Source: Citreicoccus inhibens
GTDB taxonomy: Bacteria; Myxococcota; Myxococcia; Myxococcales; Myxococcaceae
NCBI RefSeq assembly: GCF_019039035.1
Contig: NZ_JAHNZT010000013.1
Coordinates: 62,001 to 126,000, forward strand
Direction: 5' to 3'
DNA: 64,000 nucleotides
Shown: positions 107 to 17,429 of the stretch, piece by piece
Numbering within the stretch: the first letter of the stretch is position 1
Layout of the letters: every line of letters starts with the position of its first letter
The notes under the pieces: generated by a model
Told to the model about the DNA's origin: nothing
Database searches by the model: none
The model's input: only the letters and a program-made list of their open reading frames with translations
Position numbers and translations under genes: made by a program

Positions 107-925
107 ATGAAAGCACGCTCGTTTCGCGTTCTCACTTCGCTGCTCGCCACGCTGACGGCGCTCGGGGCTGCCGCCCAGGAGGAGGGCGTCCTCGACTCGG
201 CGGTCGTCCGCAATCGGCTGTATCGCCCGGCGGGGCATCCGGAGCTGTCGTTGTCGGTGGGACTGCCGGTGCAGACGCACCTGACCGCCCACTACTTCTT
301 CGACGTGGGGTTGGCCTACAACCTCTTCGACACGCTCGCGGTGGAGGCCCGTGCGGGCTACGCGGCCAGTCGCCACACCGGGTTGGCGCGCTCCATCTCG
401 GAGAGCTTCCTGGACCGGCAGGACAAGAAGATCACCGACGAGCTCGAAGACCTCTGGCAGATGAACTTCCATGGGGTCGCGGGTGTGCGTTGGGCGCCCG
501 TCTACGGGAAGTTGAGCCTGGTGTCGGACATCCCGGCGCACTTCCAGGCCTACCTCTGGGCGGGAGGTGGGGTGGGCTCGTTCAAGCGCAAGTCCGTCAT
601 CCAGTGCTCACATGTGGTGGACCGCACGGCGGGCGTCTGCGACGACCGGACCTCGCTGGATGATCGCGGCACGGCGCGCGAGGACTTCTGGGTCCACGAG
701 ACGCGCGTGGCGCCGGTGGTGTCTGGGGCGCTGGGCTTCCGCTTCTTCATCCTCGACAAGCACGGCGTGAAGCTGGAGGTGCGCGATTGGATCTTCCGCG
801 ACAGCTACCGCGTGAACCTGCTGCGGGATGACTGGGAGGCCGGCCGCGAGACGGGGGAGAAAGCCCCCAGCCCTGGACTCACGCACCTGGTGCAGTTCGA
901 CCTTGGCTACACCTTCTCCTTCTAG
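107..925 (+). CDS. nfsA: NfsA-type outer-membrane beta-barrel protein
   Basis: First gene of an eight-gene envelope operon. The protein has 272 residues, a signal peptide (cut near residue 24, after ALGAAA) and alternating beta-strand sequence. It ends in an aromatic-rich strand with a terminal Phe, as outer-membrane barrels do. Two cysteines about twelve residues apart lie in a predicted surface loop near residue 170. A LEVRD motif close to the C-terminus recurs in the next gene, so the two barrels are paralogues. I chose the ATG that begins the signal peptide, not the in-frame ATG 24 codons upstream. In M. xanthus NfsA-H act with the AglRQS motor to compact the spore coat polysaccharide. 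The name is inferred from gene order and protein types. The gliding paralogue gltA/gltB is the alternative. Confidence 0.72.
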   Translation: MKARSFRVLTSLLATLTALGAAAQEEGVLDSAVVRNRLYRPAGHPELSLSVGLPVQTHLTAHYFFDVGLAYNLFDTLAVEARAGYAASRHTGLARSISESFLDRQDKKITDELEDLWQMNFHGVAGVRWAPVYGKLSLVSDIPAHFQAYLWAGGGVGSFKRKSVIQCSHVVDRTAGVCDDRTSLDDRGTAREDFWVHETRVAPVVSGALGFRFFILDKHGVKLEVRDWIFRDSYRVNLLRDDWEAGRETGEKAPSPGLTHLVQFDLGYTFSF

Positions 926-934
926 GCCGGCCCC

Positions 935-2128
935 ATGCGAACCTTCCCGCGCCTCGCGCTCCTGTTCACCGCGCTGCCCGCGCTCGCGCTCGCTCAGGTC
1001 TCGAGCGGCGAGCAGCCCGTGCCCGCGCCGGGCCCCGAGTCGGCGATCCCTCCGGAGCCCGTCAGCGCCAGCCCCCAGCCCGAGCCACCGCGCGCGCCTC
1101 GAGAGCGCCCGCCGCCCGTGACGCCGGCGATCCAACATGCGCCGGTGCGCGCCATCGAGGCCTCCGCGCCCGCGCCCGATGCGCCCGTGGCCATGCCCAC
1201 CCCCGCGCCGCCACCGGCGAGCGCGGATGACACGCCCGACCTCTCCTCGGAGGGGCCTCGCACCACGGACGCCTCGCAGCAGCGCCTGGTGAACGGCGCG
1301 CCGCTCTACGACCCGAACGTCAACGTCCACATCGTGCAGAAGAAGCGCTTCGCCGACGAGGGCCACCACGAGGTGGTGCTGTACCCGGCGGTGGTGCAAC
1401 TCAATGGCAAGTACACCAACCACGTGGGGACGGCGCTGCACTACGTCTACCACCTGCAAGAGAACTTCGGCGTCCAACTGGCGGGCCAGTACAACTGGTA
1501 CTCGGACGAGAGCCACTTCAACCTGGAGTTGATCGACAAGGTCCGCGAGCAGGCGCAGGCGGCCTCGTCGCTCTTGCTGCAGTGGGGGGTGCAGGCTGGC
1601 GTGGAGGTGACGCCGCTGTACGGCAAGTTCGCCTTCCTCAACAACTCGTTGGCGCAGTTCAGCGTGGTGCTGAGCGGTGGTGCGGGCCTGGGGGCCACGC
1701 GGCACCTCATCCGCCCCGCGGTGGCCAACGAGGTGGATGGCCAGACGTTCCAGGTGCCCGCGCGCTACGGCGACACGGGCACCAAGTTCCTGGGCTCGGT
1801 GGGCGGCGGCTTCCGGCTCCAGTTCGGCGAGTCGTACTCCATCCGTCTGGAGGTCCGTGACCTGCTCTACACGGCGCGCGTGGACAAGGTGGATGGCTGC
1901 TCGCTGTCGGACTTCGAGGCGATGGAGACCGCGCGCGCGGGCAACCAGCCCTTCTCCGACTTGAAGCTGAGCGGTGGTTGCAAGGTGGAGAAGTTCGACG
2001 GCGTGGACCCGAAGACGAAGAAGAACTACCGCGAGGACATCATCCTGGGGCGCGACCTCGTCGCCGAGCCGTCCTCGGACGTCCTCAACAACGTCAGCTT
2101 CTATGCTGGCTTCTCCATCCTCTTCTGA
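935..2128 (+). CDS. nfsB: NfsB-type outer-membrane beta-barrel protein
   Basis: Nine bases after nfsA, clearly the same transcript. The 397-residue protein has a signal peptide ending near ALALAQ. A Pro/Ala-rich, low-complexity linker follows (about residues 25-105), then a barrel domain that ends in a terminal Phe. Two cysteines around residues 320 and 348 flank a probable surface loop. The LEVRD motif and surrounding strands match the nfsA product, so the pair looks like an old duplication in which only this copy gained the proline-rich arm. That arm could reach through periplasm or peptidoglycan to the TPR partners encoded next; this is inference. It could be the Glt equivalent instead, but no gltI or gltJ lies nearby. 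Confidence 0.7.
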   Translation: MRTFPRLALLFTALPALALAQVSSGEQPVPAPGPESAIPPEPVSASPQPEPPRAPRERPPPVTPAIQHAPVRAIEASAPAPDAPVAMPTPAPPPASADDTPDLSSEGPRTTDASQQRLVNGAPLYDPNVNVHIVQKKRFADEGHHEVVLYPAVVQLNGKYTNHVGTALHYVYHLQENFGVQLAGQYNWYSDESHFNLELIDKVREQAQAASSLLLQWGVQAGVEVTPLYGKFAFLNNSLAQFSVVLSGGAGLGATRHLIRPAVANEVDGQTFQVPARYGDTGTKFLGSVGGGFRLQFGESYSIRLEVRDLLYTARVDKVDGCSLSDFEAMETARAGNQPFSDLKLSGGCKVEKFDGVDPKTKKNYREDIILGRDLVAEPSSDVLNNVSFYAGFSILF

Positions 2129-2159
2129 GGACCGGCGCACGACCGAGGGAAAGAACGCC

Positions 2160-3692
2160 ATGTCCCGACTGCTCCGCCTCCTGGTTGTCCTGGCGCCGCT
2201 CGCGGCCTCCGCGCAGCAGGACGTCTCCGGGTACAACCGCGCGCTCGCGGCCTTCAACGCGGGTGACCTGGACACCGCCGCGCCCCTCTTCCTCCGCCTG
2301 TCGGAAGGGGAGGTGCCCCCGGATGTGAAGGCCCGGTCCGAGTACTACCTGGCGCAGTCCTTCGCGAAGAAGGACCTGCCCGTAGCGGCCTTCATCACCT
2401 ACGCGAACATCGTCAACGCTGGGCCCAAGCACCCCTCGTACCTCAAGGCCATCGAGGGGCTGGTGGACATGCAGCAGCGGTTGGATGAGCAGAACCTCAT
2501 CCCGAGCATCCTCAACCAGGCCTACACCGACGAGGTGCGCGACCAATGGGTGACGCTGCCCAAGGAAGTGCTCGCGCGCATCAACTATCTGGTGGGCACC
2601 GTGAGCCAGCGGCGCATGCGCTTCGAGGAGGCGCGGGCGCTGCTCGAGGCGGTGCCTCGTGACAGCCGCGTCTACGCGAAGGCGCGCTATCTGCTCGGCA
2701 TCGTGTTGGCGGATCCGCGCTTCCCGGGCCGTCCGGGCGAGGCCCAGTCGCTCGACCAGGAGGCCATCTCCTCGTTCAAGGATGTGCTGGCCGCCAAGGA
2801 GCCCCAGGTGGAGCTGCCCGAGACGCGGCAGCTCGCGATGCTGTCGCTCGGGCGGGTGCTGTACCGCCGCGGTGAGTATGCGCGCGCGGAGGAGGCCTAC
2901 GAGATGGTCCCTCGCTACGCGCGCTTCTGGGATCAGGCCTTGTTCGAGAATGGCTTCGCGCGCTTCCAGAACGAGGACTTTGGTGGCGCGCTCGGCAGCC
3001 TCCAGGCCCTGCACGCGCCGCAGTTCGAGGGTGCCTTCCAGCCCGAGTCGTGGATCCTCAAGGCGACCGTCTATTACTACTCGTGCCTGTACGACGAGGT
3101 GAAGACGACGCTGGCCTCGTTCGACGCGCACTACGGCCCCATGGCCAAGCAGCTGGAGCCCTTCACGCGCGAGGACGTCACGCTGGTGCAGGCCTTCAAC
3201 CTGGTGGCTTCGGAGAACCGCCGGCTGCCGCGCCCCGTCTACCTGTGGATCCGCAGCAACGAGCGGATCCGTGAAGTGCAGCGGATGCTCGCGCGCGTGG
3301 ACGCGGAGAAGCGCGAGCTGACCGAAGGCCCGTGGCGAGGCACGCCGCTGGCGACGCAGACCGTGGCCTCGTTGGAGGACGTGCGCAGCACGTTGCTCCA
3401 GGTGGGAGGCACCCTGGCGCGCAGCCGACTGCACGAGGCCTACGACAACCTGCGCACCTTCTCCGACCAGGCGGAGATCATCCGCGTGCAGACAGCGCTG
3501 GATGAGAAGGACTTGTTCCAGGCGGGAGTGGACCAGCGGGCCCTGCTCGCGCGTCAGTCGCTGTACCGCCCGAAGATGCCGGGCGAGGCGTGGAACTACT
3601 GGAAGTTCCAGGGCGAGTTCTGGATCGACGAGATTGGCTACTACCAGTACACGCTCAAGCGAGGCTGTCCCGCGAAGAAAGCGGAGCGCTGA
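2160..3692 (+). CDS. nfsC: NfsC-type periplasmic TPR protein
   Basis: The 510-residue protein has a signal peptide (residues 1 to about 19, ending ASAQQ) followed by helical TPR-like repeats, for example around residues 25-100 and 225-290, and a long helical C-terminal half. The start is the ATG of the signal peptide. The open frame runs 62 codons further upstream, but that part overlaps nfsB and is not protein-like. In the Nfs and Glt complexes the C component is a soluble periplasmic TPR protein that links the outer-membrane barrels to the rest of the machine. A gap of 113 bases to nfsD shows no clear promoter. Confidence 0.7.
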   Translation: MSRLLRLLVVLAPLAASAQQDVSGYNRALAAFNAGDLDTAAPLFLRLSEGEVPPDVKARSEYYLAQSFAKKDLPVAAFITYANIVNAGPKHPSYLKAIEGLVDMQQRLDEQNLIPSILNQAYTDEVRDQWVTLPKEVLARINYLVGTVSQRRMRFEEARALLEAVPRDSRVYAKARYLLGIVLADPRFPGRPGEAQSLDQEAISSFKDVLAAKEPQVELPETRQLAMLSLGRVLYRRGEYARAEEAYEMVPRYARFWDQALFENGFARFQNEDFGGALGSLQALHAPQFEGAFQPESWILKATVYYYSCLYDEVKTTLASFDAHYGPMAKQLEPFTREDVTLVQAFNLVASENRRLPRPVYLWIRSNERIREVQRMLARVDAEKRELTEGPWRGTPLATQTVASLEDVRSTLLQVGGTLARSRLHEAYDNLRTFSDQAEIIRVQTALDEKDLFQAGVDQRALLARQSLYRPKMPGEAWNYWKFQGEFWIDEIGYYQYTLKRGCPAKKAER

Positions 3693-3805
3693 GCGGCGTG
3701 CCCGGGCCACTTCTCATTCGAGGGGGGCGCGTCTACTTTCTGTCGTCCCTGGCCCAGGGGGCCGCGCGGCCTTCGCGCCAGGGCAGGTGACTTGGCGGGG
3801 TTCGC

Positions 3806-6800
3806 ATGAAGGTGGTGCTGCGTTTCGGTGCGCTGGCGGTGGGGGTCGCACTGGCGACAGGGGCGGGGGCGGAGGCTGCGCAGTCCCGGAAGGCCGCCAC
3901 GAAGCCGGGGCGGGCGTCCGCGACGAAGCCTGAGGCGGCGTCCTCTCGCAAGGACAGCGCGGGCAAGGACGACGCGAAGAAGGCCGAGGCACCTCCGCCG
4001 GGCGTGGCGCCCGAGGACGTGCGCAGCGGTCCCGCGCGCGTGCGGCCCGCGACGGCGAAGTTCGCGGAAGTGCCGCGCATCGACGACGCGAAGAAGGACG
4101 CGCTGGCGGACAAGAAGCGCGACGAGGCCATCGAGGGCTTCAAGCGCCTCATTCCCAAGCTCCAGGATGGCAGCACGCAGAAGGCGGAGCTGCTGTATCG
4201 CCTGTCGGAGTTGTACTGGGAGAAGTCGAAGTACCTCTACCGGCTGGAGATGAACCAGTTCCTCTCCGCGGAGAAGTCCTACGACGCGGCCGTGGCGCGG
4301 GGCGAGAAGGTGGAGGCGCCTCGGCAGGACCATCGTGAGAGCGAGCGTTACCGCGCGGACACGATGCGCATCTACGAGGACATCCTCCGCGACTACCCGA
4401 ACTATCCCCAGCGCGACGAGGTCCTCTTCTCCCTGGGCTACAACCTCTACGAGCTGGGCCGGCGCGACGAGGCCGTGGCCCGCTACGAGGAGCTCATCCG
4501 CGACTTCCCCAAGTCGCAGTTCGTGCCGGACACGTACATCCAGCTCGGCAATCACTACTTCGAGGCGAACAAGTTGGACCCCGCTCGGGCCAACTTCGAG
4601 AAGGCGCGCGCGTCCGGCGTTCCAAAAATCTTCGCCTACGCCATCTACAAGCTGGCGTGGTGTGACTACAACACGCCGGGCGGCTACGACGCGGGACTCA
4701 AGAAGCTCCACGACGTGGTGGACTACGCGCAGAAGCACGGCGCGGAGCTGAGCGACCTGCGCACCGAGGCGCTCAATGACCTGACGGTCTTCTACGTCCA
4801 GTTGGATCAGCCCGAGGCCGCGCTCGCTTACTTCAAGGCGAAGGCGCCCGTGCAGCGGCAGAGTCGGCTGCTCGCGAAGACCGCCGCGGGACTCGTGGAC
4901 GCGGGCCACTTCGACAGCGCCATCACCATGTACCGCACGCTCATCGACGACGCGCCGATGGGTTCCAACGCTCCGGAGTATCAGCAGGCCATCGTCCGCG
5001 CCTTCGAAGGACTGCGGCAGCGCCAGCAGGTCCGCAAGGAGATGAAGCGGATGGTGGACCTGTACCGCCCCGGCGCGCCCTGGTGGAGCGCCAACGCGGG
5101 ACAGACGCCGGTGCTGCGCAACGCCTTCAACGTCACCGAAGAAGCGATGCGGGTGATGGTGACGGAGTACCACCAGGAGGCGCAGAAGACGCGGCAGGTG
5201 GAGACGTACCGGCTCGCGCGCGACATCTACAAGCAATACGTGGACGCGTTCGCGTCGAATGACAACCCGGACTTCGTCGCGGACTCGGCGTTCAACCTGC
5301 GCTTCTTCTACGCGGAGATCCTCTGGGCCCTCGAAGAGTGGGAGGCCGCCGCCGCCGAGTACGACGCCGTGGTGGTGTTCAAGATTCCGGACCGCGACAC
5401 CGCGCGCGAAGTCTCCAACGAGGCCTACCGAAAGAGCGCCGCGTACAACGCGGTGCTCGCCTACGACAAGCTGGTGAAGATCGAGCGCGGGCAGCTGTCT
5501 CGCAGCGACCTCAAGGACGGGCAGAAGGTCGACGAGAAGAAGGACAAGGGCGACGTCGCTCGGCAGAAATTGGTGAAGCGCGACGCGCGGGAGCAGCAGG
5601 AGGAGGACCTCACGCGGTTCGAGTCCCGACTCGTGGCTGCTTGCGACGTGTACAACAAGCTGTACCCAGACAACCCGGACGAGATTGACCTGCGCTATCA
5701 GGCCGCGGTGATTCTCTACGACCGCGCGCACTTCGTGGATGCCGCGCGGCGCTTTGGGGAGATCATCGACAAGTTCCCGGAGGAGCGGCGATCGCGTGAC
5801 GCGGCCGACCTCACGATGTACGTGCTGGAGAGTCGGCAGGAGTGGTTCGAGCTGAACACGCTGTCGCGCAAGTTCCTGTCGAACAGGAAGTTGTCCAAGC
5901 CCGGCACGGACTTCACCGCGCGCGTCGCCCGCGTGGTGGAGGGCAGCCAGTACAAGTGGGTGGATGAGATCGTCTACAAGAAGGAGAAGAACCCGGCGAA
6001 GGCCGCCGAGGAGTTCCTTCGCTTCGTCTCCGAGTTCCCTCACTCGGAGAACGCCGACCGCGCGCTCACCTACGTGATGGTCATCGCGCAGGAAGCGGGC
6101 GAGATGGACAAGGGCATCACCGCCGGCGAGCGCTTCCTCAAGGAGTATCCCGGCAGTCCCTTCACCCTGAAGGCTCGTTACACGCTGTCCGGCCTCTACG
6201 AAAAGGTGGCCGAGTTCCGCAAGGCGGCGGTCATGTCCGAGGCCTTCGTCGCCGAGTACGACGCGGCCATGGCGGAGCGCGACTCGAGCCACAAGGCGAA
6301 GGAGTCCAAGCACAAGGGCAAGGCTCCTCCAGCGAAGAAAGAGGAGCCCGCGAGCCCCACGCCTCCAGAGTCCGCCGAGTCGCGCGCGCGCCATGCGTCG
6401 GAGCGCGCCACCTTGGTGGATGAAGCGGGGGCCTGGGTGGCCGATGCGCTGTTCAACACCGGGGTGTGGTGGGACGGCGTGGGCGATTCACAGAAGGCGG
6501 TGGCGGCCTGGTCCGCGTACATCCGCCGCTTTGGGGACCGCAAGGACGTGCCTCAGGTCGCGTTCGCCATCGGGCTCGTCTGGGAGAAGGAGAAGAAGTG
6601 GGCGGATGCGGCTCGCGCCTTCAACCTCTTCGTCGAGGACTATGGGCGGGATGCGCGCACGGCCTCGGGGCAGCCGTATCTGGCGCGCTACCGCGAGTTG
6701 CTCGCGTACCAGAAGCAGCGCGATTACCGCGGCATGGAGCGGGCCGAGGACGACCTGGTGCGGACGTGGGGCCGTCTGCCGGAGGCGCAGCACAAGAACA

Positions 6801-7462
6801 CCGCGCTGCTCAACGCGTATGGCCATGCGCGGTTCCTCACGCTGGAGTCGCTGTGGCGGCGCTACACGGAGATCCGCTTCACGCGCGTGAGCACCATCCG
6901 CCGAGACCTCGCGGCCAAGCAGCGGGAGATGGCGCGCCTGGAGAAGGAGTACGCGGCGGTGCTCGCCACGGGCTCGGGCGAGTGGGGCATCGCGGCGCTC
7001 ACCCGCATCGGGCTCGCATACGCGGACTTCGCGCGCAACATCATGGAGTCGCCGGATCCGCCGGGGCTCGATGAGGATCAGCTCTCCATGTACCGCGGTG
7101 AGTTGGAGAACCTGGCGCTGCCGCTGGAGGACAAGGCCTCCGAGGCTCTGGAGAAGGGCTTGGACAAGGCCTACGAGCTGGGGCTCTACAGCGAGTGGAC
7201 GCTGGCGGCCCAGGAACAGCTCAATCGGTACAAGCCCGGGGTCTACGCCGCGGTGCGGCCGGTCACCTATCGCGGCAGCGGTGAGTCGTTCGCCAGCACG
7301 GATGTGGCGCGCGTGCTGACGGGCCCGGCCAGCGCAGCCACCGCGCCCGCCGAGCCTGCTCCGGCCACGCCGCCGCCGCAGGACCCTCCCGCGAAACCCC
7401 AGGCGCCCGAGGCGGGCAAGGCGCCCGCGCCCACCGCGTCGAATGAGGAGGTGCACCCGTGA
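3806..7462 (+). CDS. nfsD: NfsD-type large TPR protein
   Basis: The largest component of the cluster at 1218 residues. A signal peptide (to about residue 22) is followed by a Lys/Ala/Pro-rich linker (about 25-70). Many TPR-like helical pairs follow, for example around 125-160, 205-265, 370-400 and 745-800. The protein ends in a Pro/Ala tail after residue 1175. A GGCGGGG ribosome site precedes the ATG. The family analogue is the D component of the Nfs and Glt trans-envelope complexes, thought to be a periplasmic scaffold. A second Lys-rich, charged insertion lies near residues 830-860. The stop codon overlaps the start of the next gene (GTGA), so the two are translationally coupled. Confidence 0.7.
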   Translation: MKVVLRFGALAVGVALATGAGAEAAQSRKAATKPGRASATKPEAASSRKDSAGKDDAKKAEAPPPGVAPEDVRSGPARVRPATAKFAEVPRIDDAKKDALADKKRDEAIEGFKRLIPKLQDGSTQKAELLYRLSELYWEKSKYLYRLEMNQFLSAEKSYDAAVARGEKVEAPRQDHRESERYRADTMRIYEDILRDYPNYPQRDEVLFSLGYNLYELGRRDEAVARYEELIRDFPKSQFVPDTYIQLGNHYFEANKLDPARANFEKARASGVPKIFAYAIYKLAWCDYNTPGGYDAGLKKLHDVVDYAQKHGAELSDLRTEALNDLTVFYVQLDQPEAALAYFKAKAPVQRQSRLLAKTAAGLVDAGHFDSAITMYRTLIDDAPMGSNAPEYQQAIVRAFEGLRQRQQVRKEMKRMVDLYRPGAPWWSANAGQTPVLRNAFNVTEEAMRVMVTEYHQEAQKTRQVETYRLARDIYKQYVDAFASNDNPDFVADSAFNLRFFYAEILWALEEWEAAAAEYDAVVVFKIPDRDTAREVSNEAYRKSAAYNAVLAYDKLVKIERGQLSRSDLKDGQKVDEKKDKGDVARQKLVKRDAREQQEEDLTRFESRLVAACDVYNKLYPDNPDEIDLRYQAAVILYDRAHFVDAARRFGEIIDKFPEERRSRDAADLTMYVLESRQEWFELNTLSRKFLSNRKLSKPGTDFTARVARVVEGSQYKWVDEIVYKKEKNPAKAAEEFLRFVSEFPHSENADRALTYVMVIAQEAGEMDKGITAGERFLKEYPGSPFTLKARYTLSGLYEKVAEFRKAAVMSEAFVAEYDAAMAERDSSHKAKESKHKGKAPPAKKEEPASPTPPESAESRARHASERATLVDEAGAWVADALFNTGVWWDGVGDSQKAVAAWSAYIRRFGDRKDVPQVAFAIGLVWEKEKKWADAARAFNLFVEDYGRDARTASGQPYLARYRELLAYQKQRDYRGMERAEDDLVRTWGRLPEAQHKNTALLNAYGHARFLTLESLWRRYTEIRFTRVSTIRRDLAAKQREMARLEKEYAAVLATGSGEWGIAALTRIGLAYADFARNIMESPDPPGLDEDQLSMYRGELENLALPLEDKASEALEKGLDKAYELGLYSEWTLAAQEQLNRYKPGVYAAVRPVTYRGSGESFASTDVARVLTGPASAATAPAEPAPATPPPQDPPAKPQAPEAGKAPAPTASNEEVHP

Positions 7463-8838
7463 GCGCCCCGTCGTCGTTCGTGGCCCCTCGCGCGTGGGGA
7501 TGGCGCTCGCGCTGGTTCGTGTTGGGCCTGTCGTGTGGCGCGCTGGCGTGCGCCTCGGCGAAGCCCGCGGTGGTGACACCGCCCACGCCGCCCGTGGTCA
7601 CCGCGCCTCCACCTCCGCCACCGGAGAAGACCGCGGACGCGCTGTTCGCCGAGGCGCTCGCGGCCTACGAAGCGGGCGACCTGGACACCGCGCGCGCGGG
7701 CTTCGAGAAGGCGCTGGCCAAGGCGCCTCAGGCGCTCAATGCCCAGTTCAACCTGGGCGTCATCGCGCAGCGCCAGGGGCGGATGGATGACGCGCGCGCG
7801 GCCTATGAGAAGGCACTGTTCCTGGACCCCGCGCACACGCCCTCGGTGCTCAACTTGGGTGGGCTGGAGCGTCAGCAGGGGCGGGCGGATGAGGCCATCG
7901 CGCTCTACGCGCGCGCGCTCAAGGCGCCGAAGCATGAGGATGACGTGGCGGTCCTCGACGCGCTCACCGCTGCGTACGCGCAGGCCAAGAAGTTCGACCT
8001 GGCGGAGTCCACCGCGCGCCGCGTCCTATCGCGACACAAGGACCATCCCGAGGCCTACAAGAACCTCGCGCTCATCGCCTACGAGCGTGGCCAGTTCCGC
8101 CTCGCGGAGCTGCTCCTGCTCGACGCGCGCAAGGGCGCGGACAAGGACCCGGCCATCGCGAACACCCTGGGCATGGTGTACCTGAAGCTCGATGACCGAG
8201 CCCGGGCGCTGGCGCAGTTCCAGCGAGCCGTCTCGCTCGATGCGAAGTTCGTCCCAGGCTTCCTCAACCTGGGCGCGCTGGCGCTCAGCTACCGCGACTA
8301 TGCGGGCGCGGAGCGAGCCTTCTCTCGGGCGCTGGAGCTGGAGCCGGGCGCGCAGGAGGCCCAGCTCTATCTGGCGTATGCGTTGGATGGTCAGAAGGGC
8401 CGGGAGCCGAAGAAGGGAATCGCGGCGGGCGAGGCCTTCGAGCGGGTGCTGGCGCAGCGCCCGGATCAACCCGAGGCCCTGTGTGGCGCGGGCTGGGCCT
8501 ACGCGGCCGAGCGCACCGGCTGGCAGAAGGCCATCGCGTTCCTGGAGCGTTGCAGGGGGTTGCCGTCCACGTCCGCGCAGGATCAGCAGCTCATCCAGGC
8601 GAAGACGCAGGGCTTGCGCAACATGATGAAGTCCACCGCACAGGCCACTCCCGCGCCCGAGGGGGGGCATCCGGACAAGAAGCCAGGACCTCCGGCCGCG
8701 GGTGGGGGCGGCTCGGTGTTGGAGCACCTGCCACAGGACCCGGCCGCGGAGCCTGCTCCCACTGGGACTGGGGGGCCAGCGGGTGATGCGCCCGAGACGC
8801 CTCCCGCTCCCTCCCCGGCGCCAACTCCGGGGAAGTGA
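7459..8838 (+). CDS. nfsE: NfsE-type TPR lipoprotein (AglT/GltE family)
   Basis: Starts with GTG inside the nfsD stop (GTGA overlap). The 459-residue protein begins with a basic, hydrophobic signal ending in GALAC followed by Ala-Ser, a plausible lipobox without Asp at +2, so outer-membrane retention is expected. After a Pro/Thr linker come about eight canonical TPR units (about residues 50-370), with the A-x-x-x-F/Y-x-x-A-L pattern repeating every 34 residues. A Pro/Gly-rich tail closes the protein. AglT/GltE is the gliding paralogue. Its exact role is unknown, but it is needed for a stable complex. A T-rich hairpin lies directly after the stop and precedes nfsF. Confidence 0.72.
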   Translation: MSAPSSFVAPRAWGWRSRWFVLGLSCGALACASAKPAVVTPPTPPVVTAPPPPPPEKTADALFAEALAAYEAGDLDTARAGFEKALAKAPQALNAQFNLGVIAQRQGRMDDARAAYEKALFLDPAHTPSVLNLGGLERQQGRADEAIALYARALKAPKHEDDVAVLDALTAAYAQAKKFDLAESTARRVLSRHKDHPEAYKNLALIAYERGQFRLAELLLLDARKGADKDPAIANTLGMVYLKLDDRARALAQFQRAVSLDAKFVPGFLNLGALALSYRDYAGAERAFSRALELEPGAQEAQLYLAYALDGQKGREPKKGIAAGEAFERVLAQRPDQPEALCGAGWAYAAERTGWQKAIAFLERCRGLPSTSAQDQQLIQAKTQGLRNMMKSTAQATPAPEGGHPDKKPGPPAAGGGGSVLEHLPQDPAAEPAPTGTGGPAGDAPETPPAPSPAPTPGK

Positions 8839-8843
8839 CGGTG

Positions 8844-8866
8844 GGGGGAAGTTTTTTCCTTCCTCC
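8844..8866 (+). terminator. stem-loop between nfsE and nfsF (attenuator or processing site)
   Basis: Six bases after the nfsE stop an 8-bp stem (GGGGGAAG at 8844-8851 pairing with CTTCCTCC at 8859-8866, one G-T pair) closes a 7-base loop containing six T. It resembles a weak terminator, but the T run is in the loop rather than behind the stem. It may lower transcription into nfsF-H or protect the upstream message. Not tested. Confidence 0.4.
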
Positions 8867-9000
8867 AGGCCCGCCCGTGGAAGCTGGCGAGCGGCGGCCT
8901 TAGATTCAGGGGGCTTGGAGCTGGTGCGAGCCCTGCAAGGAGCGGCGGGGGCCTCGGGCCCGACCCGCTGTCTCAGGCAATGGAGTGACTGGAGGCTGCA

Positions 9001-9282
9001 ATGAAGCGACTGGCAGCGGGAGTGTTGGGGACCGTGCTGTTCGCTCTTCCCGTGGCCGCGCAGGAGCGCGGCAAGGATGAGGTGAAGGTCATCCAGGAGG
9101 AGGACCGGACGGTCTACCGGAAGAAGACGGTCATCGACTTCACGGATGTCGCGGTGGAGGGGGAGCTCACCAAGCCGGAGGGCTCCTATCTGCTCAATCG
9201 CAAGCAGACCGACTTCCAAAGCCTCATCAAGGTCCGGGAGAACTTCGATCCAGAGATGCAGAAGTCCGCGGACAACCTCTAG
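9001..9282 (+). CDS. nfsF: NfsF-type small periplasmic protein
   Basis: A 93-residue protein with a clear signal peptide (residues 1-20, cut after PVAAQ) and a charged mature part of about 70 residues with no cysteine and no membrane segment. A GGAGG ribosome site lies a few bases upstream of the ATG. Size, secretion signal and position between the TPR lipoprotein and the FHA/TonB-like gene match the F component of the Nfs and Glt complexes, whose biochemical role is not known. A gap of 162 bases before it holds a stem-loop and no convincing promoter. Confidence 0.7.
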   Translation: MKRLAAGVLGTVLFALPVAAQERGKDEVKVIQEEDRTVYRKKTVIDFTDVAVEGELTKPEGSYLLNRKQTDFQSLIKVRENFDPEMQKSADNL

Positions 9283-9338
9283 CGGGTGACGCGACGGGCG
9301 GGCGTTTTTCGGGCGGAAGGGAAGAAGGAAGATTCCTC

Positions 9339-11384
9339 ATGGCGGCGGCGAAGAAGAACGGCGTGACGCTTCGAATCACCGGACCGGACGGCTCCATCCA
9401 GGAGGCCGTTGTGGATGCGGACAGCGTCATCGTGGGGTCGGGCGCCCAGGCGGCGGTGAAGATTCAGGACCCGCGGGTCTCCAACCTGCACGTGATGCTC
9501 AAGGTCGATGCCGACGGCTCGGTGGTCGCCATCGACCTGGGCAGCGAGAGCGGCACGCAGGTGCGCGGCGAGCGCCTCCTCATCCCCACGCCCCTCAAAC
9601 CCGGTGACGTGCTGGCCCTGGGGGGCTCGCGCGTCGAGGTCTTCTTCGGTGAGCCCGCGCGGGCCATGCCTCCCGCGGGCGCGCAGGTGGCGGGCGCCGC
9701 GTTCCAAGGGTCGGTGACGCAGCGCCCGGCGTCTCCCTCCATGGCCGAGGTGGTGACACCCGCGCGAGTGCAGGCCGTGGGCGCGCAGGTCACGAGCGCC
9801 GGGGGCGCGAATCGCGCGACGGTGAGCGCGGGGTTGGGCGGAGCCGGGGCCGTGTCTCGCTCCACGCCGCCCGCGCCCATGTTCGATGCGCCGCCGCCCG
9901 CGGCCCGGACTCGCCCCGAGCCCCACGCGGTTCGCCGCGATGCGCCGCTTTCCGCGGCCCGTCCTCCCGCGCATCTTCAGGAGCCGCTGCCCGCCGAGGC
10001 CCAGCCCACGGCCGATGCGCACCTGCTCCAGGTCGCGCTTCTGTGGGGCGACACGCTGCTCGAGGTCCGGCACTTCCGAGACGGCGTGCCCGTCACGGTG
10101 GGCGAAGGCTCACGCAACGCGTTCCTGGCTCCAGTGCCCGGGGTGGGCGCTCGCCATGTCCTCGCGGTGGGGCGCGGGGGCACGTTGGAGCTGCGGACTC
10201 CCGCGGGGGCGGGCGTCATCGTCACCCACATGGGGGACGTGCGGACCAAGGATGCGCTGCGTGCGGCGGGACAGCTCGCGAGCGCGGCGGCGGACGCGGA
10301 GCAGGTGTACACGCTCGGCCTGCATGACCGGGCGGAGGTGGCGCTGGGCGCGCTGACGTTCGTGCTCCGGCAGGTCCGGCCCTCGGCGGCCATCGAAGCG
10401 CCCGCGCTGTCCGAGCGCGACTTCGCCTTCTTCAAGATCACCGTGATGTGCCTGATGGTCGCGGCGGCGCTGCTGGCCGCGCTGACGCTGACGCCGCGCA
10501 CGGAGTCGCGCTCGGCCGATGACATCTTCGAGTCCCAGCAGCGGGTGGCGAAGTTCCTCATCGCGCCGGAGAAGAAGGTGGAGATGAAGAAGCTCCAGCT
10601 TCAGGGCGTGGAGGAGGGCGCGAAGGCGAAGGACGAGGAGGGCAAGTTCGGCAAGGAGGAGGCCAAGAAGGCCGAGGCCGATCCCTCGAGGCCCGGGACG
10701 CCCGTGGTGGATCGCACCAAGAAGGAGAAGGACCGGCAGGTGGTGGGAAAGGTCGGCCTGTTGGGTGCGTTCAAGGGCTTGAAGGGCGGCGCGTCGGACG
10801 TGTTCGGGCCGGGCGGTCTGGGCACGGGCATCAACAACGCGCTGGGTGGGCTCAAGGGCGGCGCGGGCATGGGGGATGCGCAGGGCGTGGGCGGCATGGG
10901 CACGCGCGGCACGGGCAAGGGCGGCGGCGGCACGGCGCTGGGCATCGGGGGCGTGGGGACGCAGGGCGATGGGCGCGGCGCGGGTGGCTCGGGGGGCATC
11001 GACCTGGGCGGGCGCGGCAAGAGCCTCACCAAGGTCATCCCGGGCAAGACGACGGTGGTGGGCGGCCTGGACAAGGACGTCATCGCCAAGGTCATCCGGC
11101 GCCACCAGGGTGAGATCAAGTACTGCTACGAGTCCGAGCTGAACAAGAACCCGAGCCTCGCGGGCAAGGTGGCGGTGGCGTTCACGATCGACCCGACGGG
11201 CGCGGTGGCGGACGCGTCCGTCTCCGAGTCGACGCTCGGCAGCACCTCGGCGGAGAACTGCATGCTGGCTCGCATCCGTCGCTGGAAGTTCCCCGAGCCC
11301 AAGGGGGGTGGCGTGGTGTCGGTGACGTATCCCTGGCTGTTCTCGCCCGCGGGCGCGGATGTCGGCGGCGGGGGCGAGGGCTGA
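9339..11384 (+). CDS. nfsG: NfsG-type trans-envelope protein (FHA-like, TM, TonB-like C-terminus)
   Basis: 681 residues in recognisable modules. There is an FHA-like fold at about 8-105, then a Pro/Ala linker, then a second compact domain at about 225-350. One transmembrane helix lies at about 364-385, followed by a charged Lys/Glu helix and a strongly Gly-rich spacer (about 480-565). The C-terminal AgmX/PglI-type TonB-like domain spans about 575-675 and includes an E-I-K-Y-C-Y-E motif. The N-terminus would be cytoplasmic and the C-terminus periplasmic. In the gliding paralogue GltG this layout couples the inner-membrane AglRQS motor to envelope parts. The FHA motif SxxH is kept (SNLH), but the usual phosphate-binding Gly-Arg reads GSG. 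Start ATG follows an AAGGAAG ribosome site. Confidence 0.75.
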   Translation: MAAAKKNGVTLRITGPDGSIQEAVVDADSVIVGSGAQAAVKIQDPRVSNLHVMLKVDADGSVVAIDLGSESGTQVRGERLLIPTPLKPGDVLALGGSRVEVFFGEPARAMPPAGAQVAGAAFQGSVTQRPASPSMAEVVTPARVQAVGAQVTSAGGANRATVSAGLGGAGAVSRSTPPAPMFDAPPPAARTRPEPHAVRRDAPLSAARPPAHLQEPLPAEAQPTADAHLLQVALLWGDTLLEVRHFRDGVPVTVGEGSRNAFLAPVPGVGARHVLAVGRGGTLELRTPAGAGVIVTHMGDVRTKDALRAAGQLASAAADAEQVYTLGLHDRAEVALGALTFVLRQVRPSAAIEAPALSERDFAFFKITVMCLMVAAALLAALTLTPRTESRSADDIFESQQRVAKFLIAPEKKVEMKKLQLQGVEEGAKAKDEEGKFGKEEAKKAEADPSRPGTPVVDRTKKEKDRQVVGKVGLLGAFKGLKGGASDVFGPGGLGTGINNALGGLKGGAGMGDAQGVGGMGTRGTGKGGGGTALGIGGVGTQGDGRGAGGSGGIDLGGRGKSLTKVIPGKTTVVGGLDKDVIAKVIRRHQGEIKYCYESELNKNPSLAGKVAVAFTIDPTGAVADASVSESTLGSTSAENCMLARIRRWKFPEPKGGGVVSVTYPWLFSPAGADVGGGGEG

Positions 11385-11405
11385 ACAGCTCCGGCGGTCG
11401 CGAGT

Positions 11406-11429
11406 GGCGGGGACGCAACGGACCCCGCC
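11406..11429 (+). terminator. GC-rich stem-loop between nfsG and nfsH
   Basis: Perfect 7-bp stem GGCGGGG/CCCCGCC with a 10-base loop, 22 bases after the nfsG stop and followed by GGTTTCG. It could be a partial terminator, or an mRNA-processing hairpin that sets the ratio of nfsH to the upstream genes. There is no T run, so full termination is not assured. Confidence 0.35.
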
Positions 11430-11529
11430 GGTTTCGCTCCGGACCGACATTGCCGAGTGGCCCGGGGCATCACTAACGTCTCGCGCCGCTTCCGGTGGGT
11501 TCGGGAGGGCTCGTTCGACGGGAGGCCCT

Positions 11530-12129
11530 GTGAAGAAGTCCGTGCTGTTGGCCGCGCTCGCGCTGTCCGTCCCCGCCCTGGCGGAAACGCCTCCCGAGGG
11601 TGTGGAGTTCACGCCGCGCCGTGGCTTCTTCACCGAAACGGATATCGGCGTCTTCTTCACCGTGGGCGGCGAGAACTCCTATTCGAACGCGCAGTCGTAC
11701 CTGCAGCTCGGCATCGGCTACGACCTGACCGAGCGCCTGTCGTTGGGCGCGCACTTCGGCTTGGGCTCGTCCGCGGCGAACTGCTTCGCCGGCTTCTTGC
11801 CGAACTCCGACATCTGCTCGCTGTCGGACAACTTCACCGTGGCGTTCGGTGACCTGACGGCCGCGTATCACCTGCGGCTGGCGAATCGCTTCTATCTGAC
11901 GCCGAAGATCGCCGCGGGTTACACGCGGTTGGATCCGTCTCCCGTGGACTCGGAGGGGGGAGACCCCGGTCGCGCGACGAATGCCTTCAACGCGGGGGCC
12001 GGGGTGGGGCTGGAGTACGCGACGTCGCTCGATCACTTCTCCGTGGGGGCGGACTTGATGGGCCGCTACATCTTCGGGCCCAGCATCATGACGTTCGCCG
12101 TGTTTCCTCGCGTGAAGTACACGTTCTGA
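11530..12129 (+). CDS. nfsH: NfsH-type outer-membrane beta-barrel protein
   Basis: A GTG start with GGAGG four bases upstream opens a 199-residue protein. The signal peptide ends near PALA, and a small barrel follows with a terminal Phe. Two cysteines about twelve residues apart (near 79 and 91) could form a surface-loop disulphide. It closes the eight-gene set, the last member in both Nfs and Glt nomenclature. The open frame extends 57 codons upstream, but that stretch overlaps the inter-gene hairpin and lacks a secretion signal at its beginning. The next gene is on the other strand, only 12 bases away. Confidence 0.7.
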   Translation: MKKSVLLAALALSVPALAETPPEGVEFTPRRGFFTETDIGVFFTVGGENSYSNAQSYLQLGIGYDLTERLSLGAHFGLGSSAANCFAGFLPNSDICSLSDNFTVAFGDLTAAYHLRLANRFYLTPKIAAGYTRLDPSPVDSEGGDPGRATNAFNAGAGVGLEYATSLDHFSVGADLMGRYIFGPSIMTFAVFPRVKYTF

Positions 12130-12141
12130 GGGCCGCGCGGC

Positions 12142-13122
12142 TCACGCCCGCGAGGCGTGGTGGCGGTAGCTCTCCAGCGTCTCGCGGAGGGCTTGCTCCA
12201 GGGGGGTGTACGTGAAGTCCGGGACGCGCCGCCGCAGCGTCGCGTCATCGAGCAGCAGGGTGTTCTCGTAGAGGTAGCGCATCTCCACCACCTCGCGAGC
12301 CATGCCATTGAAGAGTCCACCCACGCGGATGAGCCACCACGGCAGCCGGCGCACGCGCGCGGGGGCTCCGGCGGCTCGTGCGACGGCCTCCAGGAAGTCT
12401 CGGGAGGTGGGCGTGACGAAGCCGCGCACGTGCACCACGTCGAACGCCGGGCCATCCGCGAGGCCCATCAGCGCAACGGTGGCTCGGGCCACGTCGGGCA
12501 CATAGGCCATCTCGTGCGCGCGAGTTGGATCCGTGAGCGTGAGCAGCGCCTTGCCGGCCAGCGCATTGAGGAACATTGGATCCACGCCACCGTTGCGCAC
12601 GGTGGGGCCGAAGTAGTCATTGGCCCGGACGACCAGGACGCGCACGTCGCCAGCCTGCGTGGCGTCGCGCAGCGCGTGCTCCATGCGCATTCGCAGCGTT
12701 CCCTTGTGCGTGATGGGGCCCTCGGGATGGGACTCCGTCAGCGGGACGTCGTAGCGCGGGGCGAGGTTGTACACGTTGCCCGCGAAGACGATGGTCGCGC
12801 CCTGCGCTCGCGCGGCGGCGATGACGTTGGTGGTGACGCGCTCCATGACGGTGTCCCACTCGGGATAGGGCACGTTGATGGCGTGGACGAGGTGACTGCA
12901 GCCCTCGGCGGCGCGTGAGACCGCCTCGGCCTGTAGGGCGTCACCGACTCGCAGCGCCACGCGTGAGGCGTCCTCGCCCAACGCTCGGCGGGCCCGGGCC
13001 TCATCGCGTACGAGCGCTCGCACCCTTGCCCCCGCGGCGAGGAGCGCTCGCGTCACGGCGAGGCCAAAGCCTCCCGTGGCACCAAGGACGAGGATGGGAC
13101 GCGTGAACGAGGGGGCGGGCAT
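12142..13122 (-). CDS. NAD-dependent epimerase/dehydratase (extended SDR-like)
   Basis: The 326-residue protein opens with a Rossmann strand and the dinucleotide motif GATGGFG at about residues 14-20. The body resembles atypical SDR proteins of the epimerase/dehydratase group, with an Asn-Val-Tyr-Asn stretch (about 106-109) near the usual catalytic region. No textbook YxxxK is visible, so the reaction is uncertain and an NmrA-like or sugar-nucleotide role is possible. GGAG precedes the ATG by six bases. It is transcribed away from the AraC-type regulator, which may control it. That link rests on position only. Confidence 0.75.
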   Translation of the reverse strand: MPAPSFTRPILVLGATGGFGLAVTRALLAAGARVRALVRDEARARRALGEDASRVALRVGDALQAEAVSRAAEGCSHLVHAINVPYPEWDTVMERVTTNVIAAARAQGATIVFAGNVYNLAPRYDVPLTESHPEGPITHKGTLRMRMEHALRDATQAGDVRVLVVRANDYFGPTVRNGGVDPMFLNALAGKALLTLTDPTRAHEMAYVPDVARATVALMGLADGPAFDVVHVRGFVTPTSRDFLEAVARAAGAPARVRRLPWWLIRVGGLFNGMAREVVEMRYLYENTLLLDDATLRRRVPDFTYTPLEQALRETLESYRHHASRA

Positions 13123-13338
13123 GGGAGGCTCCAGGAGCAAGGAAGACCGATGCCCGAAACCTACGAAGCGGGCGGCTCCGGGGCAGTGATGGCACCGGAC
13201 AAAGGATTGACCCGCGCGGCCACGGCCCGTGTCACGACGCGCCACGCCCCCCCGCGCGAGCACAGGGCTCGGCCAGTCTCCCCTTGCGATGGGCTCCCGG
13301 AGAGCGCGGGTGGGGCGCGGGGCGATATAACCGGGGAT

Positions 13339-14349
13339 GTGAGTCACCTCGTCTCCCTTCGCGTCCTGCGTCCCGTGTTGGAGGCCTCGCGTGCCGTGGG
13401 ACTCGCTCCCGCGGAGCTTGCGCTCATCGAGGGTCCCCCCGTGGATTCCCCGGATGCGGTGCACGTGGCGGTGGAGCGCTACCTGGAGCTGTGGGACGAG
13501 GTGTCGCGCCGGGCGCCTCGTCCGCTGTTCCACCTGGACGTCGCCCGCATGGGGGGACGCGAGCACTTCGGCGCGCTGGGTTTCGCGTGCGCGGTGAGTC
13601 CGGATCTGGACGAGGCGTTCGCCCGCCTGGGGCGCTTCTGTCGGCTGTGCACGAGCGCGTGGACGTGGGAGCGCGGGCAGGTGGAGGACCTCGCGGCGTT
13701 GGTGCTCGCGTGGCACACGGCGCCGCAGGCCGGCGACTCCGTGGCGGCGGAGCACCTGCTCATGGAGTGCCTGCACACGGGCCAGCTCATCGCGGGACAG
13801 CCGTGGCGGCCCGTGGAGGTTCACTTCACGCACGCTGGGCCCTCGGACACGTCGGCGCACCAGGCCGCGTTCGGCGCGCCGGTGCACTTCGGCCGCGAGC
13901 GCAACGCGCTGCTCGTTCGCCCCGAGGTGACGCAGTGGAAGCTCGCGCAGGCGGACCCGTACTTCCTCGCCTTCTTCGAGCGGCAGGCCGAGGCCCTGCT
14001 CGCGAAGGCGCCTCGCCCCGAGTCGCTGAGCGCGCACGTGCGGCGCCTGCTCGTGGAGGACTTCCGAGGCGGACTTCCGAGCCTGGGCAGCGTGGCGACG
14101 CGGCTGGCCTTGTCCGAGCGCACGCTGCGCCGGAGGCTTCAGGACGAAGGCACCCAGTTCCAGCAGCTCGTGGAAGAGGTCCGAGAGGCGCTGGCGCGCC
14201 GCTACCTGGGGGAAGCCCGCTTGTCCGTGGGCGAGGTCGCCTTCCTGCTGGGTTTCAGCGAGCCGAGCGCCTTCCACCGCGCCTTCAAGCGATGGACCGG
14301 GGAGACGCCGGTGAGCTTCCGGCGGCGGCAGGACGTCTCGCACGCCTGA
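13339..14349 (+). CDS. AraC-family transcriptional regulator (arabinose-binding-like N-terminus)
   Basis: The 336-residue protein has the two-part layout of the OruR/ArgR-like AraC subgroup. The N-terminal ligand domain (about residues 5-195) carries the F-G-x-L-G-F/Y-A stretch typical of PF12625. The C-terminal double helix-turn-helix (about 235-330) includes A-x-x-L-x-x-S-x-R-T-L-x-R-R-L and the second-helix motif G-F-S-E-P-S-A-F-H-R-A-F-K-R-W. I place the start at the GTG where family similarity begins. An ATG 63 codons upstream is possible but adds only low-complexity sequence. A GATATAA stretch just before the GTG could be a -10 element. Its target may be the divergent epimerase gene. 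Confidence 0.82.
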   Translation: MSHLVSLRVLRPVLEASRAVGLAPAELALIEGPPVDSPDAVHVAVERYLELWDEVSRRAPRPLFHLDVARMGGREHFGALGFACAVSPDLDEAFARLGRFCRLCTSAWTWERGQVEDLAALVLAWHTAPQAGDSVAAEHLLMECLHTGQLIAGQPWRPVEVHFTHAGPSDTSAHQAAFGAPVHFGRERNALLVRPEVTQWKLAQADPYFLAFFERQAEALLAKAPRPESLSAHVRRLLVEDFRGGLPSLGSVATRLALSERTLRRRLQDEGTQFQQLVEEVREALARRYLGEARLSVGEVAFLLGFSEPSAFHRAFKRWTGETPVSFRRRQDVSHA

Positions 14350-14359
14350 GGAAACACGA

Positions 14360-14389
14360 AGGGCCGCCCCCGATGAGAGGAGCGGCCCT
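14360..14389. terminator. stem-loop between convergent araC-type gene and typA
   Basis: Perfect 8-bp inverted repeat AGGGCCGC/GCGGCCCT around a 14-base spacer, 10 bases after the regulator stop and 26 bases after the typA stop. The symmetric position between convergent genes suggests a bidirectional terminator. No T run is present on either side. Confidence 0.55.
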
Positions 14390-14415
14390 GGGGACGTCAC
14401 AACGAGGGTGAGTGA

Positions 14416-16260
14416 CTACCCGTTCTCGTTGCGCTCCTCGCGCTTGCGGTCGCGCTCGGCACGGTAGCGCTCACCGTTGGCGAGGGCCTTCTTGCGCATG
14501 CGGACGGACTTGGGCGTCACCTCGACGAGCTCGTCGTCGGCGATCCACTCCAGGGCCTTCTCTAGCCCCATCTCGCGGGGCGGGACGAGGATGACGTTCT
14601 CGTCGCGGCCAGCGGCGCGGATGTTGGTGAGCTTCTTCTCGCGGCACGCGTTGACGTTGAGCTCGGACGGGTGCGAGTGCTCGCCGATGATCATGCCCTC
14701 GTAGACGGTGGTGCCCTCGGCGACGAAGAGCTGGCCGCGCTCCTGGATGCTGAACAGGGCGTAGGGCACGGTGTCGCCCAGGCGGTCCGAGACGATGGCG
14801 CCGTTGGCGCGCTTGGGGATGTGGCCGAACCACGGCTCGAAGCCGTCGAACTGGCTGCTCATGATGCCCTCGCCACGGGTGATGGTGAGGAACTCAGAGC
14901 GGAACCCGATGAGGCCGCGCGCGGGGATGCGGAACTGGAGGCGGGTGCGGCCCGAGCCCAGCTGCGCCATGTCCGTCATGCGGCCCTTGCGGGGCCCCAG
15001 GCGCTCCGTCACGGAGCCGACGCTGTTCTCCGGCACGTCGCAGAAGAGCAGCTCCATCGGCTCGTGGAGCACGCCGTCGATGGTCTTGGTGATGGGCTCG
15101 GGGTTGGACGCCGTCAGCTCGTACCCCTCGCGGCGCATGTTCTCGATGATGACGGCGAGCGCGAGTTCGCCACGGCCCACGACCTTGAACGCGTCCGGCG
15201 TCGCGGTGTCCTCCACGCGCACGGCCACGTTGCGGTAGGCCTCGCGGTAGAGGCGCTCACGCAGGTTGCGCGAGGTGACGAACTTGCCTTCCTTGCCGGC
15301 CAGCGGTCCGTCGTTGACCTTGAAGATCATCATCATCGTGGGCTCATCCACGGTGATGCGGGGCAGGGCCACCGGCTTCTCGGCGTCCGCGATGGTGTCA
15401 CCAATGGACACCGCCTCGATGCCGGCGATGGAGACGATCTCACCCGGACCCGCGTCCGGAATCTCCACGCGCTTCAGGCCGGAGAAGCCGTACAGCTTGA
15501 CGATCTTCCCCTGCTCGACCTTGCCGCCCTCGCGCATGACGGAGACGGGCATGTTGGCCGCGAGCCGGCCGGCCTGAACGCGGCCCACCGCGAGGCGGCC
15601 CACGTAGTCGTCGTAGTCCAGGTTGGCCACGAGCAGCTGCAGCGACGGCTCGCTGGACATCGGTGGAGGCGGGATGTGGCGGATGATGGCGTCGTAGAGC
15701 GGCTCCAGCGTCTTGCCGGGGACCTCGAGCTCCGTGGACGCCTGACCCTGGCGCGCGACCGTGTAGAGGACGGGCATCTCCAACTGCTGCTCGTCCGCGC
15801 CCAGGTCGATGTAGAGCGAGTAGACGAGGTCGAGCACGTCCTTGGCGCGCGCGTCCTGCCGGTCAATCTTGTTGATGACCAGCACCGTCTTGAGGCCCAT
15901 GGCCAGGGCCTTGCTCAGCACGAAGCGCGTCTGGGGCAGGGGACCTTCGGCCGCGTCCACCAGCAGGATGACGCCATCGACCAGGCGCAGACCGCGCTCC
16001 ACCTCGCCACCGAAGTCGGCGTGGCCTGGGGTGTCGATGATGTTGATCTGCATCCCCTTGTAGGAGACCGCGGTGTTCTTCGCGAGGATGGTGATGCCCT
16101 TCTCGCGCTCGAGGTCGTTCGAGTCCATCACCCGTTCGGCGACGACCTCGTTGCTACGGAAGGTGCCCGCCTGGCGAAGCAGGTGGTCGACGAGCGTGGT
16201 CTTGCCATGGTCGACGTGGGCGACGATGGCGACATTGCGGATGTTTTCGCGAGGAATCAT
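14416..16260 (-). CDS. typA: translational GTPase TypA/BipA
   Basis: 614 residues, the usual TypA/BipA length. The GTPase domain begins immediately: A-H-V-D-H-G-K-T (G1, about 14-21), an R-E-K-G-I-T-I-L-A switch I region, D-T-P-G-H-A-D-F (G3), N-K-I-D (G4). Elongation-factor-like beta-barrel and alpha-beta domains follow, with the TypA-specific C-terminal domain ending in a Lys/Arg/Glu tail. TypA is a ribosome-associated GTPase used in 50S assembly and in stress or cold growth. The ATG has a poor ribosome site. A good sigma-70 promoter can be read about 90 bases upstream on the same strand. It appears to be monocistronic. Confidence 0.96.
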
Positions 16261-16344
16261 ACGAACCGAACTGGAAGATGGAGGTGCGATGGGGCCACCC
16301 AGGACGGGTGCTCCCGAACCTCACCGGAACCCGGAAGGCCGGCG

Positions 16345-16373
16345 CTTATATGCCGCGAGGGACTCCCCTGCAA
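16345..16373 (-). promoter_or_regulatory. sigma-70-type promoter of typA
   Basis: On the minus strand TTGCAG (16373-16368) and TATAAG (16350-16345) are separated by exactly 17 bases, giving a transcript with a leader of about 75-80 bases before typA. This is a close fit to the housekeeping consensus in DNA that is otherwise very GC-rich. Confidence 0.6.
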
Positions 16374-16490
16374 TGAACGCGGGTGCTTGCCGCGTGACTG
16401 ACCGGGACAGGGGCTGGCATTCCAGTGAGAACGGTACGGGCGCGCCCGATGTTCCCCGCTCGGCGAATCCTCCCCGGCGGGTGGCCCCTG

Positions 16491-17429
16491 TCACCGTCCC
16501 GGCACAGTCCCGGTGGCCCGGCCGTCGACCGGAGGACAGGCCGCCCCGAGCGACAGGCGCTCCCGGAGGAAGCGCTCGATGCGCTGCTCGACCCGGCTGG
16601 GGGCCTCCAAGGGGGTGGTGTGGGTGCCCTCGGGGATGAGCATCAGCTCGGCATCCGGCACCCGGGCGGCCAGCCGCCGGGACAGCCACCCGGGGGTGAA
16701 GCGGTCCCGCTCCCCGGCGATGACCAGGGTGGGGACGTCCACGTGGGGCAGGTGATCCCACGCGCTGTGGGCGGCCAGCGAGTCCAGCGTCCGGACGAAG
16801 ACGACCGGATCCATGTTCGCCAGGTGGGCGAAGTAGGGCGACAGGTCATTGCGTGAGATGAGGTCGCGGTTCATCTCCAACTGGATGGCGACCTGTACGG
16901 CCACCTCGGTGCTGAGCACCCCGCGCACGAGCTGGGCGGCGCGCCGGGGGAAGCGCTCCACCACGCGCCGCAGGGTGGGGAAGGCGCGCTTGAGCAGGGT
17001 GGAGTCGTGGAAGGTGTCCAGCGGGTTGCCGTAGCTGCCGCACAACAGGGCGAGTCCTCCCACGCGGTCGGCGTGGCGCCGGTGGAACTCCAGCGCCACC
17101 TGGACGCCCATGGAGTGGCCGAAGACGACGGCGCGCTCCAAGCCCGCCGCGTCCATCACCCGCGCGAGGTCGTCGCACGTGTACAGCATGCCGATGCGGC
17201 CGCGGTCAGACGGCAGGCCGGAGCGGCCATGGCCTCGGTAGTGCCAGCGGACCACGCGGTGCCTGCGCGCCAGGTATGGCAGCAGGTACTTCCACGCGAA
17301 GCCGTCGCAGCCCAGGCCGTCGCACAGCACCATGCCCGGCTCGCCCTCGCCCATCACCTGGAAGTACAGGTCCGCGCCGTCGGGAACGCGGAGGAAGTCC
17401 TGATGGAAGTAGGGCGGCGTGGCGCTCAT
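16491..17429 (-). CDS. alpha/beta-fold hydrolase
   Basis: 312 residues with the alpha/beta hydrolase core: the oxyanion strand near residues 33-40 (C-D-G-L-G-C-D-G), the R-G-H-G-R-S-G-L motif (about 70-77), and the nucleophile elbow G-H-S-M-G (about 104-108). A late Asp lies in G-E-R-D-R-F (about 242-247) and a catalytic His in E-G-T-H-T-T (about 271-276). The substrate cannot be read from sequence. Its start overlaps the stop of the upstream sigma-54 activator (ATGA), so the two are translationally coupled and the activator likely co-regulates it. No signal peptide, so cytoplasmic. Confidence 0.88.

Follow-up and report, generated by a model that had tools for sequence, protein, structure and literature searches.

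In Myxococcus xanthus, sporulation depends on every gene of the nfsA-H operon (MXAN_3371-3378); AglR is in contact with NfsG, AglRQS must conduct protons, and NfsD and the Exo glycan rotate together around the spore (PMC3858216, PMC2875238). Conserved synteny of nfs in Stigmatella was reported in 2010 (PMC2875238). A homologous component set, for which the same AglRQS motor is expected, forms the gliding machine Glt of M. xanthus (gltA-K, clusters G1 and G2), and C-, D-, E- and G-type components like those of nfs also occur at two further M. xanthus loci, G4 and G5.

The window analysed here was a stretch of 64,000 nucleotides (C28:62001-126000) from the draft genome of Citreicoccus inhibens (9.05 Mb, 123 contigs). 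Eight complete, co-oriented ORFs with plausible starts and stops were found on the forward strand between positions 107 and 12129, in the order A-H and with high third-position GC throughout (Table 1). An eight-gene Nfs-like run of this order and these component types had been predicted; ORFs and domains matched, and the coordinates were right, including the start at 107. NfsA and NfsB both passed the NCBIfam model for myxobacterial outer-membrane barrels (TIGR04565, cut-off 60 bits); AlphaFold models of the two proteins from 12-sequence alignments had mean pLDDT values of 40 and 38, respectively, and were set aside. In NfsG, the FHA domain (residues 30-95) is followed by a single hydrophobic segment (364-384) and a TonB_C domain (607-669).

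Table 1. Features of the nfs locus of C. inhibens (positions in the window; percentages are protein identities).
Feature	Position	Strand	Description	Evidence
nfsA	107..925	+	outer-membrane beta-barrel, 272 aa	73% to M. xanthus NfsA; TIGR04565 184 bits; tree, Nfs side
nfsB	935..2128	+	outer-membrane beta-barrel, 397 aa, long Pro-rich N-terminal part	65% to M. xanthus NfsB; TIGR04565 67 bits; tree, Nfs side
nfsC	2160..3692	+	TPR protein, 510 aa	79-80% to M. xanthus NfsC; GltC model 209 bits, cut-off 450; tree
nfsD	3806..7462	+	large TPR protein, 1218 aa	74% to M. xanthus NfsD, 28-29% to GltD; tree
nfsE	7459..8838	+	TPR lipoprotein, 459 aa, lipobox LAC at Cys31	62% to M. xanthus NfsE; GltE model 120 bits, cut-off 225
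nfsF	9001..9282	+	small periplasmic protein, 93 aa	74% to M. xanthus NfsF; CglF/GltF model 70 bits, cut-off 90
nfsG	9339..11384	+	FHA - transmembrane - TonB_C, 681 aa; expected AglRQS motor contact	69% to M. xanthus NfsG; GltG model 352 bits, cut-off 650; tree
NfsG FHA domain	9426..9623	+	canonical phosphate-binding Arg position is Ser34, codon 9438-9440	PF00498 46 bits
nfsH	11530..12129	+	outer-membrane beta-barrel, 199 aa, GTG start	74% to M. xanthus NfsH; OMP_b-brl 36 bits; tree

Scanning genomes with the D protein gave 22 loci. Nearly all of these belong to named Myxococcaceae, M. xanthus AM003 among them. The matched M. xanthus locus has ORFs of 294, 439, 520, 1286, 535, 96, 744 and 200 aa (starts not corrected). 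It was taken as nfs because these sizes fit the published NfsA-H table (294, 442, 512, 1202, 499, 94, 682 and 200 aa; PMC2875238). The M. xanthus glt loci were likewise recognised by size (GltI 4132 aa, GltG 640 aa).

All eight C. inhibens proteins were 62-79% identical to this one M. xanthus locus and shared its gene order, strand and domain make-up, whereas matches to Glt, G4 and G5 proteins, whichever of the two genomes these came from, were at 22-45%. The neighbours are conserved as well: an rplC-like gene (87%) lies upstream, and downstream are BipA (92%) and a gene for an alpha/beta hydrolase (74%). The locus differs from the M. xanthus operon as follows: NfsB (397 vs 442 aa) and NfsE (459 vs 499 aa) are shorter, the gap between nfsC and nfsD is 113 instead of 214 bp, and an epimerase-like gene stands between nfsH and BipA. 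This gene lies directly downstream of nfsH on the opposite strand (12142-~13000) and had no match in the compared loci. In M. xanthus, too, the gene downstream of nfsH is on the other strand (PMC2875238). Among Myxococcaceae, the DNA approximately 190-200 bp before nfsA, which lies just beyond the 64-kb window, has a conserved GAAACGTT-like block and, closer to nfsA, another conserved block; both stand after a probable rplC terminator.

Trees were calculated for each of the eight proteins by quick searches with SH-aLRT support only, and all placed the C. inhibens protein with Nfs (support 82-100). In the D tree, all Nfs sequences fell on one side of a branch with support 100 and all Glt sequences on another (98); in the C tree, the corresponding values were 99 and 98. 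In both, the C. inhibens proteins adjoined those of Corallococcus, near the Nfs proteins of Myxococcus and Pyxidicoccus. The A, B, E, F, G and H trees agreed, with Nfs branch supports of 96, 93, 92, 82, 98 and 100, respectively; the Glt branch of the G tree had a support of only 55. The locus is thus a vertically inherited orthologue of the spore-coat operon nfsA-H, as had been proposed in preference to Glt, and it shows once more that a known machine is conserved by vertical descent. It was also announced as a further natural variant for comparing Nfs with Glt. This is true, but the gain is modest: the kind of locus is already known from M. xanthus and, since 2010, from Stigmatella, and what is new is another species' copy.

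Seven MotA/ExbB loci were counted in the C. inhibens genome. One (contig C32) is aglRQS, with 82-85% identity to M. xanthus, and another (C67) is of the MXAN_3003-5 type (76-81%). Orthologues of exoA-D, which were recognised by the published operon make-up (Wza, a Wzc-type membrane protein and a separate kinase), are located on C72 with 56-86% identity to M. xanthus. Gene content, order, orthology and synteny of the locus are those of nfs, and both aglRQS and exoA-D are present. We therefore expect, with a probability of about 0.86, that this nfsA-H operon acts in C. inhibens as a trans-envelope spore-coat machine run by AglRQS. The barrels NfsA, NfsB and NfsH, the TPR proteins NfsC, NfsD and NfsE, the small NfsF and the inner-membrane-spanning NfsG would form a complex reaching from the inner to the outer membrane. 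In sporulating cells, this complex would couple via NfsG to AglRQS, the proton-driven motor whose genes lie elsewhere in the genome. The motor would move the complex around the cell surface, and the moving complex would wrap the spore-coat polysaccharide Exo into a tight layer. Developmental expression, coupling to the motor, rotation and the wrapping of the coat are expected here by analogy with the M. xanthus experiments; the M. xanthus mechanism is the most likely one because of the orthology and because aglRQS and exo are present.

An nfs orthologue by descent might instead serve to transport a different surface polymer, not the myxospore coat, or have no part in sporulation. Nfs-type operons are found in seven other families of the order as well, and Nfs may not mean sporulation in all of them. 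For C. inhibens itself this appears unlikely, given the closeness of the locus to M. xanthus and Corallococcus, its conserved flanks and the presence of exoA-D and aglRQS.

A gliding machine, or a second glt set serving motility rather than the spore coat, would share the component types and distant homology of this locus, and NfsH even reached 212 bits on the NCBIfam CglE/GltH model (NF033755, gliding_CglE; cut-off 70). This model, however, gave only 179 bits for the genome's own GltH, and is an equivalog model without power to discriminate NfsH from GltH. On the curated GltC, GltE, GltF and GltG models, the Nfs proteins stayed below the cut-offs (Table 1), whereas the GltC, GltE and GltG of the same genome, used as positive controls, scored 1061, 772 and 1034 bits. 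A full glt set is encoded elsewhere: gltD-H, the giant TPR frame gltI (a 4123-aa open frame) and gltJ are on C29, and gltC, gltA and gltB on C57. Thus glt is split over two loci in C. inhibens as in M. xanthus, unlike the single run of nfs, and has the order B-A instead of A-B. The original prediction had rightly noted that gltI and gltJ are not next to the nfs run; they adjoin gltD-H, as they adjoin glt in G1 of M. xanthus. With the trees, the models and the separate glt set all against it, Glt ancestry of the locus was rejected as highly improbable. Given the NF033755 scores, automatic annotation is likely to name NfsH proteins CglE.

That the locus is instead a Glt-like paralogue of the G4 or G5 type has a negligible chance, although the genome contains both (C49 and C35), since each of these lies away from the window and pairs with its own M. 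xanthus counterpart on a long separate branch (D protein 75% and 84%), and trees and gene content refute the identity. C49, which has B- to G-type genes, was also considered as a rival Nfs locus and rejected, because it pairs with the M. xanthus G4 locus beside mglBA. The mglBA genes, which we take to be MXAN_1925-1926, decide which M. xanthus locus is G4 (MXAN_1922) and which is G5 (MXAN_1327). The three other GltD-type loci of C. inhibens are accordingly Glt, G4 and G5, and the draft assembly, which is estimated to be 100% complete, yielded no other Nfs locus, let alone a better one. The G4-type locus (L013, G000:C49:64000-83999, 3517-17611) stands between mglBA and a wza gene, and its MglA is 97% identical to that of M. 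xanthus, where mglA and G4 are linked as well (L092). The published orphan wzaB, MXAN_1915, is numbered close to MXAN_1922, so that G4 may be connected with polysaccharide export through this linkage.

The canonical FHA arginine (GR motif) contacts phosphothreonine. Approximately 46 NfsG and GltG loci were compared at this position, which was checked by sequence against the FHA domain of mycobacterial TB39.8. Serine was present in all 31 NfsG having an FHA domain; arginine or lysine was present in 15 of 15 GltG outside family f7. In f7, three Glt sequences also had serine, and four NfsG had no alignable FHA domain. Phosphothreonine binding, as the usual role of FHA domains, was mentioned in the 2010 description of NfsG (PMC2875238). 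The residue pattern speaks against such binding by the NfsG domain. No discussion of this pattern was found in the open-access papers searched. The motor-contacting protein offers a specific difference that can be tested, Ser34 in NfsG versus arginine in GltG.

For an order-wide search with NfsC, 59 genomes from nine families (coded f1-f9) were used. Within Myxococcaceae, 25 of 26 genomes had a copy at at least 50% identity. The sole exception in the family (G021, L197; 2.7 Mb, 99% complete) has gltB-A-C, and its only C protein is of the Glt type. In the seven other families with copies, f2-f4 and f6-f9, identities were 34-45%. Family f5 (17 genomes) yielded a Glt-type C only or none, and no Nfs-type C in this search; Nfs operons were thus present in eight of the nine families sampled (L164-L203). 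Outside Myxococcaceae, they form A-B-C-D-E-F-G-H runs with best matches to Nfs throughout, some of them cut by contig ends. In f5, f6, f7 and f9, glt too forms one uninterrupted run (B-A-C-D-E-F-G-H). The C. inhibens nfs locus is indeed a single run, but because glt has the same form in these four families, an uninterrupted run does not identify Nfs by itself, and its use as the only criterion was rejected.

In the D and C trees, Nfs copies from the other families joined Nfs, and Glt copies of the same families joined Glt. Since the two clades are separate across eight of nine families, the duplication is older than the families sampled; with only G4 and G5 as outgroups, this gives a minimum age for the split. 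The published account describes this duplication as recent (PMC3858216, PMC3169522), whereas nfs-type operons look older and more widespread than that would suggest. In 2011 it was left open whether Glt or Nfs is the more recent; in the present comparison, the two were distinct before the sampled families diverged. We tentatively put forward a broader reading, on balance rather doubtful, in which Nfs would be an old sister machine predating the families and not a recent Glt offshoot for myxospores. It would perhaps serve another surface-polymer task in several families, and the NfsG FHA domain would no longer read phosphothreonine, so that the machine would be switched by expression and not by the signalling that steers gliding. 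A Myxococcaceae MAG (L141, G005:C58) carries an extra GltG-like gene with 50% identity, with no other glt genes recognised in the stretch examined.
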